Source: an uncultured Alphaproteobacteria bacterium (GTDB lineage: Bacteria; Pseudomonadota; Alphaproteobacteria; CADEGL01). Taken from it: a stretch of 64,000 bases of DNA. Each line of letters opens with the position of its first letter. Positions within the stretch are counted from its first letter, which is position 1. The notes under the pieces are model-generated. The model searched no databases, was not told where the DNA came from, and saw only the letters and a list, made by a program, of their open reading frames with translations. The stretch is from assembly GCA_902826885.1 (NCBI GenBank), contig CADEGL010000005.1:14027-78026 (forward strand), written 5' to 3'. The translations under genes were made by a program, and so were the position numbers. Positions 9,770 to 16,581 of this stretch are shown here, piece after piece.

Positions 9770-10924
9770 TTATTCTTCTTTCGGCGCGCATAAGCGCTGG
9801 TGCTCATCCAAGGCAAATCGATCGGTCATTCCAGCGATGTAGTCGGCGACCGCCCGCGCACGGTCTCCCGGATCGCCCGCGGCTTCGTGTCGCAGAACGG
9901 GCGCCGGCGGGTCGCCCATATAGACAAGGAAGAGGTCCCGCACCACCTCCCGCGCGTGATCGGTCATCTGGTTGACCCGCTCGTGGCGGTACATCCGCCG
10001 GAACAAGAAATCCTTGAGCGCCCGGTTATGCGCTTCCATCCCGGCGCTGAAGGCGACCATGGGCCGCGCCTGGGCGCGAACATCCTCGGCCGAGCGGGGC
10101 TTGGCCGCCTCGAGCCGCCGCCGCGTCTCGGCCAGGAGGTCGGACACCATCAAATTGATCAGCCGCCGAATCGATTCGTGGATCAGGCGCGGCCGTTCGA
10201 TCCCCGGATAGCGGTGACTCACCTCGTGGAAGACCTGGCCGACCAACGGTAGGCCGGCCAAGTCCTCGACCGCGAACAACTCGGCCCGGAGCCCGTCGTC
10301 GATATCGTGGTTGTTGTAGGCGATGTCGTCGGCCAGCGCCGCCACTTGGGCTTCGAGCCCGGCATAAGTACCGAGCTCCAGGTTGTTGCGCGCGTTATAG
10401 GCCAGGATGGTCTCGTGCACGTCCGGGCCGCTCAACGGACCGTTGTGCTTCACCAGGCCCTCCAGTGTTTCCCAGGTCAGGTTCAGCCCGTCGAACTCGG
10501 CGTAATGCCGCTCCAGAGAGGTGACGATCCGCAGCGCTTGGGCGTTGTGATCGAAGCCGCCATGGCCGCGCATGCAGGCGTCCAGCGCCTCTTCCCCCGC
10601 GTGACCGAAGGGTGTGTGGCCGAGATCGTGGGCCAGCGACAAGGCTTCGGCCAGATCGTCGTCGAGCCCAAGCGCCCGCGCCATCGAGCGCGCGATCTGG
10701 GCAACCTCCAGGCTATGGGTCAGGCGCGTGCGGTAATGATCGCCTTCGTCATAGACGAAAACCTGGGTCTTGTGTTTCAGGCGCCGGAAGGCGGTGGAAT
10801 GGATGACCCGGTCGCGGTCGCGCTGAAAGACACTGCGGGTCTGGCTTTCGGGCTCGGCGTAAAGCCGCCCGCGGCTCGCCTCGGCATGCGTGGCGTAGGG
10901 AGCGAGACGGCGGAGCGCGTTCAT
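9770..10924 (-). CDS. dgt: dGTP triphosphohydrolase-like protein (HD domain)
   Basis: A 384-residue HD-superfamily dNTP triphosphohydrolase that removes triphosphate from deoxynucleotides and helps balance dNTP pools. Key stretches: [24 protein letters not shown], then [17 protein letters not shown] (first metal His), and [19 protein letters not shown] (the HD pair and second helix). The start at 10924 ([13 protein letters not shown]) matches the family; an ATG 12 codons upstream adds an unrelated leader. It heads the minus-strand operon and is divergent from erpA across about 110 bp. Confidence 0.93.
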
Positions 10925-11037
10925 GGCGCGGAAGCTACAGGCGCCCCGATCCCCTGGCAACGCGATTTGACATTCAATTTGAAGGGATTACATAGATTTA
11001 GCGGGCTACCGAGGCCCGTTTGGCGTAGGATGCGGAC

Positions 11038-11397
11038 ATGGCGGAAGGTGTTGCGACGATCGAGCAACCGGCCCTGGCGATCAGCCCGGGGGCGGCGAAG
11101 CGTATCCGCGCGATGATGGACCGGGGCGACGCGGCGCCGGGCGCGGTGTTCCGTGTGTCGGTCAGCGGCGGCGGCTGCTCCGGCTTCCAATATGGCTTCA
11201 GCTTCGACGAAAAGCCGGCCTCGGACGACGTGATCTTCGAGGCCGATGGTGTGCGCGTGGTCGTGGACGAAGTTTCGCTCGAACTCGTGAAGGGGTCCGA
11301 ACTCTCCTATGTCGAGGACCTGGTCGGCTCCTTCTTCAAGATGAGCAACCCGAACGCGAAATCGTCCTGCGGCTGCGGCACGTCCTTTTCGCTCTAG
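11038..11397 (+). CDS. erpA: Iron-sulfur cluster insertion protein, ErpA/HesB type
   Basis: A 119-residue A-type carrier that passes iron-sulfur clusters to apo-enzymes. All three conserved cysteines are present: one in GGGCSGFQY (about residue 55) and two in the C-terminal CGCG (near 115), followed by the family ending SFSL. The fold region VVVDEVSLELVKGSELSYVEDL is intact. It is divergent from dgt, a common alphaproteobacterial arrangement. IscA/SufA cannot be fully excluded, but the location and ending favour ErpA. Confidence 0.9.
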   Translation: MAEGVATIEQPALAISPGAAKRIRAMMDRGDAAPGAVFRVSVSGGGCSGFQYGFSFDEKPASDDVIFEADGVRVVVDEVSLELVKGSELSYVEDLVGSFFKMSNPNAKSSCGCGTSFSL

Positions 11398-11431
11398 CCG
11401 CCCTCTTCTCTCCGGTTAAAAAGGAATCTTC

Positions 11432-11950
11432 ATGGCCGATGTCTGGCTGCGATTCTCATGGCGGCTTCCGGGCGCGGCGTTCGTCGCGCCGCCGCCCGCC
11501 GGTTACGTAATCCGCGCGGCGAACAAAGACGAGTGCGAAGCCGTCGTGACGGCCGCTCTGGCCGCTTATGAGACCGACGAGACCTGGGTCTCCATGATGG
11601 GGCGTATCCGAGAGCGCCTGTCGGCGCGTATCCGCGCCACGCTGGGCAAGCCGGGCACGCGCTATGCCGTGGCCGTGAAGGATGACGAAATCGCGGGTGT
11701 CTCGGCCGCGTCGTTGGAGCGCCACGACGGCCATAATCTGATCACGGGCGTCTGCGTGGTACCCGCTCACCAGGGCCGCGGGCTGGCGCGTTCGCTCCTG
11801 CTCGATAACCTGGTCTGGCTGCGCGACCAGGGCGTGGAGGAGGCGCAGGTCTTCACCGACCCGCGCGCCACGGCCGCCAGGCGCGTCTATCCGATGTTCG
11901 GCGCCCAGGTCGACGAAGCGCCCGAGTACCGCGCGCCCGAGGCCGCTTGA
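11432..11950 (+). CDS. GNAT family N-acetyltransferase
   Basis: A 172-residue protein with a single GNAT domain. The acetyl-CoA binding motif A is visible as GVCVVPAHQGRGLARSLL (Q-x-x-G-x-G/A type), preceded by a strand with AVAVKDDEIAGVSAA. The end shows YPMFGAQVDEAPEY, the usual C-terminal tyrosine-helix region. The substrate is unknown. The N-terminal 25 residues are hydrophobic and Pro-rich without a recognised function. It begins 34 bp after erpA. Confidence 0.85.
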   Translation: MADVWLRFSWRLPGAAFVAPPPAGYVIRAANKDECEAVVTAALAAYETDETWVSMMGRIRERLSARIRATLGKPGTRYAVAVKDDEIAGVSAASLERHDGHNLITGVCVVPAHQGRGLARSLLLDNLVWLRDQGVEEAQVFTDPRATAARRVYPMFGAQVDEAPEYRAPEAA

Positions 11951-11995
11951 AATGCCCCTGCGGCTCGCCTTTGATGGCGTCCGCAACATGAGGGC

Positions 11996-12787
11996 ATGAT
12001 GGTCAAAATCGCCACCTGGAACGTCAACTCGATCAAGGCGCGGCTGCCGAACGTGCTCGCGTGGCTGAAAGAAGCCCAGCCGGACGTCGTGCTGTTGCAG
12101 GAGATCAAGTGCGTCACCGAGCAATTCCCGGAGATGGAGATCGGCGATCTGGGTTACAACGTCGCCGCGGTCGGCCAGAAGACCTATAACGGCGTCGCCA
12201 TTCTCTCGAAATCCCGCATCGAGGTGGAACACCGTGTTCTGCCCGGCGGTGACGGCGGTGAAGAACAGGCGCGCTATGTCGAAGCACTGATCGACGCCAA
12301 GCCCGCGCCCTTTCGCGTAGCCTCGATCTATTTGCCGAACGGCAACCCCATCGGCACCGAGAAGTTTTCCTACAAGCTGTCCTGGATGGAGCGTCTGCGC
12401 GCCCACACCCAGACGCTGTTGGCGGGCGACGAGGTGGTCGTGCTGGGCGGCGACTACAACGTGATCCCTTGGGACATCGACGCGCGCAACCCCGCCGCGT
12501 GGGTCAACGACGCGCTGGCGCAGCCGGAATCGCGCTCGCATTTCCGCGGCCTGCTCTATCTCGGCCTGACGGATGCGTTCCGCGCGCTCCACCCCGAAGG
12601 CGGGCATTACAGCTTTTGGGACTACCAGGGCGGCGCATGGCCACGCGACGACGGCATCCGCATCGACCATCTCCTTCTCTCGCCCCAGGCGGCCGATCGG
12701 CTGGCGGAGGCTGGGATCGACCGCGGCCCGCGCGGCAAGGAAAAGGCGTCGGACCACACCCCCGTCTGGTGCGAGCTGAAACTATAG
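11996..12787 (+). CDS. xthA: Exodeoxyribonuclease III
   Basis: A 263-residue AP endonuclease/3'-exonuclease of the EEP superfamily, acting in base-excision repair. All family blocks are seen: KIATWNVNSIKARLPN (catalytic Asn), VLLQEIKC (metal Glu), NGVAILSK, GGDYNVIPWDID (Asp and Asn), GIRIDHLLLS and the terminal SDHTPVWCEL (catalytic Asp-His). An ATG one codon later is equally possible. It is followed after 2 bp by the first GFA-type gene. Confidence 0.96.
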   Translation: MMVKIATWNVNSIKARLPNVLAWLKEAQPDVVLLQEIKCVTEQFPEMEIGDLGYNVAAVGQKTYNGVAILSKSRIEVEHRVLPGGDGGEEQARYVEALIDAKPAPFRVASIYLPNGNPIGTEKFSYKLSWMERLRAHTQTLLAGDEVVVLGGDYNVIPWDIDARNPAAWVNDALAQPESRSHFRGLLYLGLTDAFRALHPEGGHYSFWDYQGGAWPRDDGIRIDHLLLSPQAADRLAEAGIDRGPRGKEKASDHTPVWCELKL

Positions 12788-12789
12788 CC

Positions 12790-13197
12790 ATGGCTGAAAG
12801 CTACGAAGGCGGTTGCCTCTGCGGCGCGATACGGTTCCGGGCGGCTGGCGCGCCGCGCTTCGTGGCCCATTGCCATTGCCAAAGCTGTCGCCGGCAAGTC
12901 GGCGGCGTGATCGCCACCTTTGCCGGCTATGCGGTGAAGGATGTGGAATGGACCAAGGGGCACCCGGGTGTCTACGCCTCCTCGCCTGGCGTGACGCGGA
13001 GTTTCTGCAAGAATTGTGGCACGCCATTGGCCTACGAGAGCGAGAAGCGGCCTGGCGATATCGACCTGTTTCTCGGCGCCTTTGACGAGCCGGGAAAACT
13101 GCCCGCGCGCTCCCATGTCTGGACCGAGGCGCGCGTCCCTTGGTTCCACGCCGATGAGCATCTGCCCATGCATTTGCGTTCCGGCCTGGAGGACTGA
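12790..13197 (+). CDS. GFA/CENP-V family zinc protein, copy 1
   Basis: A 135-residue protein of the family named after glutathione-dependent formaldehyde-activating enzyme. Zinc ligands are visible in GGCLCGAIRF, HCHCQSCRR and FCKNCG, and the C-terminal block is RVPWFHADEHLPMH. The biochemical role of these single-domain homologues is mostly unproven. The chosen ATG lies 2 bp after xthA; upstream in-frame starts run through xthA and are rejected. It is the first of four paralogues in this cluster and abuts the LysE gene by 1 bp. Confidence 0.88.
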   Translation: MAESYEGGCLCGAIRFRAAGAPRFVAHCHCQSCRRQVGGVIATFAGYAVKDVEWTKGHPGVYASSPGVTRSFCKNCGTPLAYESEKRPGDIDLFLGAFDEPGKLPARSHVWTEARVPWFHADEHLPMHLRSGLED

Positions 13198-13198
13198 C

Positions 13199-13825
13199 AT
13201 GGATCAAGCGCTGGTGATCTTCGGCGCGGCCTTCATTTGGTTTCTGGCCGTCGTCAGCCCGGGCCCGAATTTCCTGATCGTGTCGCAACTTTCCGTCGCG
13301 CGCTCGCGGGCGGCGGGCATGGGCGCGACCGTCGGCGTCTCGACGGGCGCCTTGACCTATGCCTCCCTTACCCTGTTCGGCCTCAGCATCGTGCTGAATC
13401 AGATGGCCTGGCTGCACGATCCGATCCGCATCGCGGGTGGGGCTTATCTGATCTATCTCGGGATCAAATCCTGGCTGGGCGCGCGCAAGCCGCCGCCGGC
13501 GGTGGACTTCACCGACGCGGCGCCCGGGCACTTCGCTCATGGGTTGCGCGTGGGGCTTCTGACCCAGTTCACCAACCCCAAATCCATCGCCTTCTGCGTC
13601 GGCCTGTTCGCCGCGGCGGTACCGCCGTCCACGCCCTTGTGGGCCAAGCTTTCGATCCTGGCCGCCGGCGCCGTCATCGAGTTCGGCTGGTACTCGTTGG
13701 TGACCATGGTTCTGTCCTCGGGCCGCTCGCGTGCGTTTTATCTGCGCGCCAAGGCGGCGATCGACCGGACCGTGGGCGGGCTGCTGGTTTTGCTGGGCGC
13801 GCGCCTCCTGCTGGAGGAGAATTAA
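13199..13825 (+). CDS. LysE family translocator
   Basis: A 208-residue inner-membrane exporter of the LysE/RhtB superfamily, which export amino acids or related small molecules. The signature VVSPGPNFLIVSQLS lies near residue 15. Six hydrophobic segments are present, and GLLTQFTNPKSIAFCVGLFA is the conserved central loop with Asn-Pro-Lys. The start overlaps nothing and lies 1 bp after a GFA gene; the next GFA gene begins 3 bp after its stop. The placement suggests co-expression with the zinc proteins, but the cargo is not evident. Confidence 0.92.
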   Translation: MDQALVIFGAAFIWFLAVVSPGPNFLIVSQLSVARSRAAGMGATVGVSTGALTYASLTLFGLSIVLNQMAWLHDPIRIAGGAYLIYLGIKSWLGARKPPPAVDFTDAAPGHFAHGLRVGLLTQFTNPKSIAFCVGLFAAAVPPSTPLWAKLSILAAGAVIEFGWYSLVTMVLSSGRSRAFYLRAKAAIDRTVGGLLVLLGARLLLEEN

Positions 13826-13828
13826 GCC

Positions 13829-14263
13829 ATGGCTGTCAAAGCGAAGAAGAAACCCGCGAAGCCGCGCGCCAAGACCTATACCGGCGGATGCTTGTGCGGC
13901 GCGGTACGGTTTCGCGTGACGGGCGTCCCCTTCTATGTCGCGCATTGCCATTGCAGCATGTGCCGCAAGGCGTCCGGCGCGCCGGTCGTGACCTTTACGC
14001 GCTTCCCCCTCGAAGGTTTCGCCTTCACCAAGGGCAAGCCGAAGGAATACGCCTCCTCCAAGCCGAACCGGCGCGGCTTCTGTGCCAGGTGCGGCGGACA
14101 GATCTATTTCAAGGCGGGCCGCAAGCCGGACAGCATCGGCCTCAACGTGGGCTGCTTCGACAAGCCCGAGAGGCTGACGCCCACCAGCCATATCTACGTG
14201 GACACGATGATTCCCTGGCTGCACATGCGCGACGGTCTGCCGCGCCATAAGGATCACGGATGA
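13829..14263 (+). CDS. GFA/CENP-V family zinc protein, copy 2
   Basis: A 144-residue GFA-domain protein with a basic N-terminal extension (MAVKAKKKPAKPRAK) absent from copy 1. Cysteine clusters GGCLCGAVRF, HCHCSMCRK and FCARCGG are all kept, and IPWLHMRDGLPRHK closes the domain. It starts 3 bp after lysE and overlaps copy 3 by 4 bp (ATGA), so the cluster is probably one transcript. The reaction is unknown. Confidence 0.88.
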   Translation: MAVKAKKKPAKPRAKTYTGGCLCGAVRFRVTGVPFYVAHCHCSMCRKASGAPVVTFTRFPLEGFAFTKGKPKEYASSKPNRRGFCARCGGQIYFKAGRKPDSIGLNVGCFDKPERLTPTSHIYVDTMIPWLHMRDGLPRHKDHG

Positions 14264-14667
14264 ACGACCATACCGGCCGTTGCCTCTGCGGTGCCGTGCG
14301 CTATGTCGCGCGCGGTGCGCCGAAGAGCGTCAGCAACTGCCATTGCGGCATGTGCCGCCGCGCCTCCGGCGGCCCCTTCATCACCTTCGCCCGTTATGGC
14401 AAGGAGCAGGTCGAATTCACCCAGGGCTCACCTTCCTGGTACCGCTCTTCCGACAGTGCAGAACGCGGCTTTTGTTCTTCTTGCGGCGGATCTTTGGCCT
14501 ATCGCGAGGCCAGGCGGTCGGATTCCATTTGGCTGACCGTGGCCATGATGGACAACCCGCGCGACCTGGCGCCCCAATACCATATCTTCACGGATTCCAT
14601 GCTGCCGTGGCTGCGCATCGACGATGATCTGCCCCGTCACGGACAATGGCCGACGGCGCACGCGTAA
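14260..14667 (+). CDS. GFA/CENP-V family zinc protein, copy 3
   Basis: A 135-residue GFA-domain protein. Ligand clusters RCLCGAVRY, NCHCGMCRR and FCSSCGG are intact; the first histidine of the HCHC block is replaced by Asn. The C-terminal block LPWLRIDDDLPRHG matches the other copies. It is translationally coupled to copy 2 by a 4-bp overlap and followed by copy 4 after 11 bp. Confidence 0.88.
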   Translation: MNDHTGRCLCGAVRYVARGAPKSVSNCHCGMCRRASGGPFITFARYGKEQVEFTQGSPSWYRSSDSAERGFCSSCGGSLAYREARRSDSIWLTVAMMDNPRDLAPQYHIFTDSMLPWLRIDDDLPRHGQWPTAHA

Positions 14668-14678
14668 GAGAGGCGATC

Positions 14679-15080
14679 ATGGCGAAGGGGACGATCAAGG
14701 GCGGCTGTCTATGCGGCGCGGTGCGTTATACGGCGAAAGGCAAGCCCGAGCATCTGGGCCATTGTCACTGCAACATGTGCCGGAAAAGCACCGGCGCGGC
14801 CTTTGGCACCTTCGCTGGTTTTCCTTCCGCTGACGTACGCTTCACCAAGGGCAAGCCGAAATACTTCCGTTCTTCCAAATGGGCGGCGCGCGGCTTTTGC
14901 GCCAAGTGCGGCGGCACCCTCGTCTATAAACTGGTCAAGGACGATTCGAAGATCTGGCTCTCCGTCGGTTCCATGGACGATCTGGGCGCAGTGAGGCCGG
15001 AGATGCACATCTTCACCGCGGAAATGGCGCCCTGGCTCAAGCTGGCCGATGGGTTGCCGCGCCATAAGGGGATGCCCTAG
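14679..15080 (+). CDS. GFA/CENP-V family zinc protein, copy 4
   Basis: A 133-residue GFA-domain protein. I chose the ATG at 14679 (MAKGTIKGGCLCG) because AGAGAGG sits just upstream and the family fold begins there; an ATG at 14646 would overlap copy 3. Cysteine clusters GGCLCGAVRY, HCHCNMCRK and FCAKCGG are intact, and the ending APWLKLADGLPRHK is nearly that of copy 2. It is the last gene of the GFA-LysE cluster. No clear terminator follows. Confidence 0.87.
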   Translation: MAKGTIKGGCLCGAVRYTAKGKPEHLGHCHCNMCRKSTGAAFGTFAGFPSADVRFTKGKPKYFRSSKWAARGFCAKCGGTLVYKLVKDDSKIWLSVGSMDDLGAVRPEMHIFTAEMAPWLKLADGLPRHKGMP

Positions 15081-15151
15081 CCACGGCTATTTCATGCCCG
15101 CGACAGGGAAAGGTAGAATCGGTCATTGCCGTTCAATCGAGGGAGGGCTCG

Positions 15152-15580
15152 ATGAGCACACTTCTAAACCCGAACGATCTCCAGAAGATCGCGAGCGACA
15201 TGGAGATGCAGAAGATCAATGAATTCCGGACCCGAGAGGCCAAGGAAAAGCAGCACACGAAGGAATTGCACGAGGCCTTCATGTCGCGCGGAGTCCACCC
15301 GGACGTGCAGAGCCGGGTCAACAACGCCGTACGTCATGCGGCCGAGCAAGGATTGACCGAGCTACGGGTCCTGGTCTTTCCCGCTACTTATTGCAACGAC
15401 GGCGGAAGGCGCATCAATAACTTTGACCCCGACTGGCCTGTTTCCCTCGAAGGCTTTGCCAAGAAGGCCTACGACTATTACGACGCGGAGTTGAAACCGC
15501 TCGGCTACAAGCTGTCCGCTCAGGTGCTGAACTATCCGAACGGCATGATGGGCGATGTCGGCATGTTTCTTAAATGGTGA
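15152..15580 (+). CDS. Hypothetical protein, 142 residues
   Basis: I do not recognise this family. The first about 60 residues are charged and probably one long helix (MEMQKINEFRTREAKEKQHTK). The second half looks like a compact mixed fold with GLTELRVLVFPATYCNDGGR and ends MGDVGMFLKW. There is no signal peptide and no membrane span. A good ribosome site (GAGGGAGG) precedes the ATG at 15152. GC looks lower than in neighbours. It lies 32 bp upstream of the PPK2 gene on the same strand, so the two may be co-transcribed. Confidence 0.75.
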   Translation: MSTLLNPNDLQKIASDMEMQKINEFRTREAKEKQHTKELHEAFMSRGVHPDVQSRVNNAVRHAAEQGLTELRVLVFPATYCNDGGRRINNFDPDWPVSLEGFAKKAYDYYDAELKPLGYKLSAQVLNYPNGMMGDVGMFLKW

Positions 15581-15612
15581 TGGGACTGCCATTTTGATTC
15601 CCCGGGGGAGCT

Positions 15613-16581
15613 ATGGCGAAAAAGAAAGAGCAGCAGGCGGCCAAAGATGCCGGTGTCGTCCAAACGGAGTTCGAACAAGGCGGGCTGAAGCAGAAGATCA
15701 GCCGCAGCGAGGAATTCGCCGCGCCCTACCGGATCGACAAGGGCAAGAAATTCCGCCTGAAGGATGTCGATCCCGCCGATACCGCGGGGCTTAACGCCGA
15801 GGACAAGCCCCGCGCGAAGGAAATCCTGGCCACGGGCCGCGAGGTCTTGTCGCAATTACAGGAGCGGCTTTATGCCCAGGACCGGTGGGCATTGCTGCTG
15901 ATCTTTCAGGCCACCGATGCCGCGGGCAAGGACGGCGCCATCAAGCACGTCATGTCGGGCATCAATCCGCAAGGCTGCCAAGTCTATTCCTTTAAGGCCC
16001 CCTCGGCCGAGGAGCTTGATCACGACTTCCTCTGGCGCTGCATGAAGAACCTGCCCGAGCGCGGACGCATCGGCATCTTTAACCGCTCCTACTACGAGGA
16101 AGTGCTGGCCGTGCGGGTGCATAAGGAATTCCTGGATGCTCAGCGCCTGCCACCCAAGCTGGTCACATCCAAGATTTGGGACGAGCGGTTCGAGGATATC
16201 CGCAACGTCGAAAAATACATGTCGCGCAACGGCATCATCGTGCGCAAATTCTTCCTCCATCTTTCCAAGAAGGAACAGAAGAAGCGCTTCTTGGCGCGGC
16301 TGGACGATCCGAAGAAGAACTGGAAATACTCGCTGGCCGACGGCCGCGAGCGCGGCTTTTGGAACGAATATCAGAAGCACTACGAAACGATGATCCGCGA
16401 GACCGCCACCAAGGACTCGCCCTGGTACGTCGTTCCGGCGGACAATAAATGGTTCACGCGCCTCGTCGTCGCAGCCGCCATCATCGAAGCGTTGGGCTCG
16501 CTCGATCTTCAGTTTCCGGCGGTCAGCGCGGAGAAACAGAAGGAATTGGCGAAAGTCCGCGCGCAGCTGGAGCGGGAGTAG
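15613..16581 (+). CDS. Polyphosphate kinase 2 family protein
   Basis: A 322-residue PPK2-family kinase that uses polyphosphate to phosphorylate nucleoside mono- or diphosphates, or the reverse. The Walker A-like loop is in IFQATDAAGKDGAIKHV (about residue 100). The lid and Walker B-like region follow in GRIGIFNRSYYEEVL and in the KKRFLARLDDPKKNWK segment. Single-domain length and the KRFL-DDP-K-WK block fit PPK2 class III or class I; the nucleotide preference cannot be fixed by eye. The N-terminus is charged. It converges on the VOC gene with only 6 bp between stops. Confidence 0.9.
   Translation: MAKKKEQQAAKDAGVVQTEFEQGGLKQKISRSEEFAAPYRIDKGKKFRLKDVDPADTAGLNAEDKPRAKEILATGREVLSQLQERLYAQDRWALLLIFQATDAAGKDGAIKHVMSGINPQGCQVYSFKAPSAEELDHDFLWRCMKNLPERGRIGIFNRSYYEEVLAVRVHKEFLDAQRLPPKLVTSKIWDERFEDIRNVEKYMSRNGIIVRKFFLHLSKKEQKKRFLARLDDPKKNWKYSLADGRERGFWNEYQKHYETMIRETATKDSPWYVVPADNKWFTRLVVAAAIIEALGSLDLQFPAVSAEKQKELAKVRAQLERE

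Follow-up and report, generated by a model that had tools for sequence, protein, structure and literature searches.

The window (the whole 64-kb stretch of DNA that was analysed) contains at 12790-15080, on the + strand, a LysE gene along with four genes for single-domain GFA/CENP-V proteins (Table 1), all of which probably belong to an operon led by xth. The GFA genes appear to be old and divergent, having come to lie behind argS, dgt, erpA and xth through separate acquisition and local duplication and not through recent amplification. Their products would be zinc proteins that hold thiol adducts, with lysE as a passenger or an export side-branch. Taken as a whole, this explanation is given about an even chance of being right.

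The tight run of genes began at xth, which the preliminary description had passed over and whose stop lies 2 bp upstream of gfa1 on the same strand. Gaps of 1 bp (gfa1-lysE) and 3 bp (lysE-gfa2), a 4-bp overlap of gfa2 and gfa3, and an 11-bp gap between gfa3 and gfa4 followed; the last value applies to a gfa4 start at 14679, and an alternative earlier ATG at 14646 gives an overlap of 22 bp with gfa3. The coordinates agree with the earlier placing of LysE between copies 1 and 2, and with the gaps and the overlap reported there. No sigma-70-like promoter was detected in 10900-15700 (0 found, 0.7 expected from shuffles), so the order xth-gfa1-lysE-gfa2-gfa3-gfa4 is proposed as a probable operon from gene spacing.

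Table 1. Genes of the probable operon, with positions in the window.
Gene	Position	Strand	Product and Pfam score
xth	11996..12787	+	exonuclease III / AP endonuclease family; PF03372 114.8 bits; first gene of probable operon
gfa1	12790..13197	+	single-domain GFA/CENP-V, 135 aa, CxCxSC type; PF04828 92.9 bits
lysE-family exporter gene	13199..13825	+	208 aa; PF01810 108.8 bits
gfa2	13829..14263	+	single-domain GFA/CENP-V, 144 aa; PF04828 102.3 bits
gfa3	14260..14667	+	single-domain GFA/CENP-V, 135 aa; PF04828 95.7 bits
gfa4	14679..15080	+	single-domain GFA/CENP-V, 133 aa; PF04828 100.9 bits

All four GFA copies passed the gathering score of PF04828 (24.3 bits) with 92.9-102.3 bits, and the LysE protein passed that of PF01810 (LysE-type translocator; 25.6) with 108.8 bits. 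The seven zinc-ligand cysteines, arranged as CxC, CxCxxC and CxxC, were complete in gfa1-gfa4, confirming the four genes with full cysteine sets noted previously in this interval; they were invariant across 24 aligned relatives, and the pattern was found in 140 of the 141 domains of the tree set. The genome had ten PF04828 matches over the cut-off, four at this locus and six elsewhere.

Structure prediction, carried out for gfa4 alone with a 24-row alignment, yielded a model with a mean pLDDT of 94.8 and a pTM of 0.87. Its best structural match was PA2722 of Pseudomonas aeruginosa (PDB 8ajq; Z 19.2, rmsd 1.7 over 123 residues), a single-domain CENP-V/GFA protein of 132 aa that is like gfa4 in length, fold and full-length alignment, with 32% identity in the structural alignment and a sequence E of 9.8e-17. 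No paper naming 8AJQ was found in the open-access papers searched, and there was no PA2722 function to transfer. The next matches were Gfa of Paracoccus denitrificans (PDB 1x6m/1xa8; against 1x6m, Z 13.6, rmsd 2.3 over 131 residues) and RSP_2168 of Rhodobacter sphaeroides (PDB 3fac; Z 11.6, rmsd 2.7 over 102 residues), and those ranking after these three had Z near 7. RSP_2168 is of the same fold family as gfa4, with a weak sequence match (E 0.068), and we know of no function for it. Paracoccus Gfa has the same zinc cysteines as the window copies (CxC + CxxC and CxCxxC), whereas it differs from gfa4 in its greater length (about 190 aa) and in sequence (18% identity). In the available passages of PMC4682968, the zinc ligands of this Gfa are C31, C33, C99 and C102 and C52, C54 and C57, and the cysteines of gfa4 align with the two sites as given there. 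The prediction for each GFA protein is a small beta domain that has two zinc sites, a structural one formed by four cysteines and an open one formed by three.

The gene order argS-dgt-erpA-xth was kept in most of the xth loci compared from 60 other families. An xth match was present in 284 of 385 genomes, and one locus was taken from each of these 60 families among the matches listed (~157), so that the sample consists of the listed matches most similar to the window's xth and is not a random draw. A GFA gene lay directly behind xth on the same strand (domain start -50 to 600 bp from the xth stop) in 8 of the 60 loci among the matches listed, one per other family and with a second copy in one case, and anywhere within 5 kb on either side of xth in 11 of the 60. 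Nine of the contigs end <2.5 kb downstream, an effect that could lower the count of GFA neighbours but not raise it. The class sample of 96 genomes contained 267 GFA (PF04828) matches, with at least one in 58 genomes, or about one per Mb (267 matches in 269 Mb). At this density 0.02 GFA genes would be expected behind xth among the 60, or 0.08 at fourfold density; as the families are not independent draws, binomial probabilities computed from these numbers are not to be read at face value. These counts suggest that GFA sits behind xth more often than chance and that xth is a recurrent neighbour. Within the same family as the window, the block argS-dgt-erpA-xth ... mlrC-ilvD carried a single GFA gene in G002 and, some 2.4 kb from xth, a pair in G004. 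In another family, G020 had three tandem GFA genes about 1.7 kb behind xth (L047:2769-4142). G020 also has a second GFA pair elsewhere (L048:5796-6897), and tandem GFA genes thus occur outside the window's genus.

The stretch behind xth could instead be a variable landing site for small genes, at which GFA is common enough to recur. The genes next to xth at the 51 other loci scanned were widely varied (ilvD 6, rhomboid 3, MlrC 2 and the rest shown single, these being automatic picks, some of them doubtful), but GFA, with all eight cases on the same strand, exceeded every one of these families as well as the 0.02-0.08 expected, making such a landing site unlikely. Under a further reading, xth and GFA would be recurrent functional partners in Alphaproteobacteria: the single-domain GFA protein, expressed together with exonuclease III, would bind aldehyde- or electrophile-thiol adducts from which abasic or alkylated DNA would otherwise arise, and in this lineage the partnership would have grown to four GFA members that share out the adducts. 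This is considered rather improbable, and a transcript shared with xth need not imply a shared role. No description of the xth-GFA linkage was found in the open-access papers searched.

The LysE protein fell under every NCBIfam equivalog or subfamily cut-off, including that of the threonine/homoserine exporter subfamily TIGR00949. Its best full-length matches, and nearest NCBIfam models, were both from the RhtC/2A76 branch of LysE exporters, with scores below the cut-offs (TIGR00949, 136.9 bits against 183.95; NF007591, 116 bits against 288). Among 385 genomes searched, relatives at E up to 1e-50 were confined to two genomes of the genus; at 1e-20, 18 of 96 genomes had a match, the best outside the genus having 40% identity. 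A GFA-LysE unit was sought from both sides and none was found outside the genus: 11 of 175 GFA loci also contained LysE, all of them the window's own locus or that of G001, a sister species of the same genus with an assembly in 90 contigs, and none of 20 other LysE loci contained GFA, many flanks in both searches being only ~1.5 kb. LysE was also absent from all 60 other xth loci. The GFA-LysE link, which the preliminary description had raised for relatives, therefore did not extend beyond the genus in the loci compared.

In G001, gfa1 had a 231-bp in-frame deletion by which five of the seven cysteines were lost and two were left, and lysE had a 48-bp in-frame deletion (16 codons) with the rest conserved (dN/dS 0.069). 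An assembly error is possible for these deletions, though both are in frame. In that genome the interval between lysE and gfa2 (L040:4522-6279) contains two genes, one for an EamA transporter (- strand) and one for a MarR/ArsR-type regulator (+ strand); both are absent from the corresponding place in the window. A detoxification unit, in which GFA forms a thiol or amino-acid adduct and LysE exports it, would fit the closeness of lysE to both of its GFA neighbours, gfa1 and gfa2, and the purifying selection on lysE apart from its deletion. Against it stand the cysteine loss and the lysE deletion of G001, the two genes that split lysE from gfa2 in that genome, and the locus counts, and such a unit seems quite doubtful.

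A separate true Gfa (S-(hydroxymethyl)glutathione synthase) of 190 aa was present in the genome at L054:5012-5584, apart from the four-copy cluster. It scored 322.9 bits with the curated equivalog model TIGR02820 (cut-off 234.55 bits), whereas gfa4 scored 23.8 bits, below the cut-off, and gfa1, gfa2 and gfa3 had no match; canonical Gfa identity was thereby rejected for the four copies. Among the ORFs listed beside the canonical Gfa, inspection by eye revealed neither an obvious alcohol dehydrogenase nor an obvious S-formylglutathione hydrolase. According to the available passages of PMC4682968, Paracoccus Gfa has two zinc sites and binds glutathione, with no detectable catalysis and no detectable speed-up of S-hydroxymethylglutathione formation. 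That gfa1-4 are extra synthases, catalysing the opening step of glutathione-dependent formaldehyde oxidation, is thus very unlikely: the family name, the zinc cysteine set in common and the fold match with 1x6m (Z 13.6) agree with this role, but the TIGR02820 scores set the four copies apart from the separate Gfa, and in those passages even the catalysis of Gfa itself is disputed.

Concerning the age of the copies, gfa2-4 were 39-42% identical to gfa1 as aligned and 45-51% identical among themselves, all four copies thus falling within 39-51%. The orthologues found in the same place in G001 were far closer, with 88% identity for gfa2, 90% for gfa3 and 94% for gfa4, and dN/dS values (NG86) of 0.126, 0.043 and 0.034, respectively, indicated purifying selection on each. 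The copies therefore diverged long before the two species did, and gfa2, gfa3 and gfa4 have each been kept separately. This divergence, together with separate conservation, fits distinct conserved jobs, as in the division of substrates suggested in the preliminary description, although the jobs themselves are conjectural.

Two trees were computed, a careful one of 55 rows, the bootstrap of which had not settled, and a quick one of 141 rows, and many forks were weakly resolved. In the 55-row tree, gfa1 grouped with ten rows of other genomes (100/98), and gfa3 was sister to the gfa4 group (93/91), within which the single copy of G002 was sister to gfa4 (99/91). There, gfa2 joined the same-locus copies of G003 and G004 weakly (83/51), a branch that was starred, at 97, in the 141-row tree. 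AU tests did not reject monophyly of the eight local rows (p 0.139), nor of the seven that remain when gfa1 is left out (p 0.431), and were borderline for a twelve-row family-locus group that had been named after the tree was seen (p 0.0457). In the gfa1 clade, the CxCxSC signature had S in 20 of 25 rows, compared with 4 of 116 others, in columns that were also used for the tree and are therefore not independent of it. The gfa1-type copies of G003 and G004, which belong to the same family as the window, adjoin NMT1/THI5-like, DHDPS and NIPSNAP genes, and other members of the gfa1 clade (L142, L154 and L155) adjoin xth. A mixed origin of the copies is a fair reading of these data, with gfa3 and gfa4 probably arising by local duplication, gfa1 probably of separate descent, and gfa2 perhaps separately acquired. 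The refuting outcome named in the preliminary description, copies in distant clades with unrelated neighbourhoods, is half borne out: gfa1 falls in another clade, with members from the same family beside unrelated genes, whereas gfa3 and gfa4 look locally duplicated.

On the 141-row tree, 18 label changes were needed for the 24 rows labelled as xth-linked, at least 7 of them forced by starred branches, compared with a shuffled mean of 22.5. This does not support the view that the xth-linked GFA genes are all strict orthologues. Either several GFA lineages have come to occupy the site behind xth, or losses from an old set were uneven.

Recent local amplification for dosage, by which one GFA gene would have been multiplied in place as more of one activity was needed, was also put forward in the preliminary description and would suit the four adjoining copies on one strand, the grouping of gfa3 with gfa4 (93/91) and the local clade that the AU test did not reject (p 0.139), but it is largely refuted, and made highly improbable, by the divergence of the copies (39-51%) against that of the species (88-94%), by the separate clade of gfa1 (100/98) and by a sister species that lost gfa1 function through deletion yet keeps gfa2-4.

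In the preferred explanation, that of old GFA genes of mixed origin behind xth, gfa1 and perhaps gfa2 would have been acquired separately, and gfa3/gfa4 would stem from local duplication. Since Gfa binds glutathione without detectable catalysis in the available passages of PMC4682968, a thiol-binding zinc protein is the best mechanism that can be offered. The four GFA proteins are likely to be zinc proteins of this kind that handle electrophile adducts. The open zinc site would hold a thiol such as glutathione, the protein so loaded may sequester or present adducts of thiols with aldehydes or similar electrophiles, and different copies may take different adducts. The lysE gene would be a genus-specific passenger or an export side-branch, and the xth neighbour may place GFA expression alongside base-excision repair of electrophile-caused damage.

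The open-access papers searched yielded no tested role for single-domain GFA proteins, which fits the earlier remark that these homologues lack proven roles, and no description of a tandem GFA array; the available passages of PMC12542648 and PMC10315480 deal with other genes. Made of ordinary parts, the locus is a multi-copy, divergent example of an established protein family at a site that recurs, and is of modest interest, chiefly because of the xth-GFA linkage. The recurrent xth neighbour is a first guilt-by-association lead for single-domain GFA proteins, and should the pairing prove functional, thiol-zinc proteins would be connected with the repair of DNA damaged by electrophiles. The sister genomes, with gfa1 intact in one and gutted in the other, show which copies are retained by selection. 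Directly behind gfa4, at 15152-15580, lies an ORF of 142 aa that matched neither Pfam nor NCBIfam models; its counterpart in G001 was 77% identical, with a dN/dS of 0.106.
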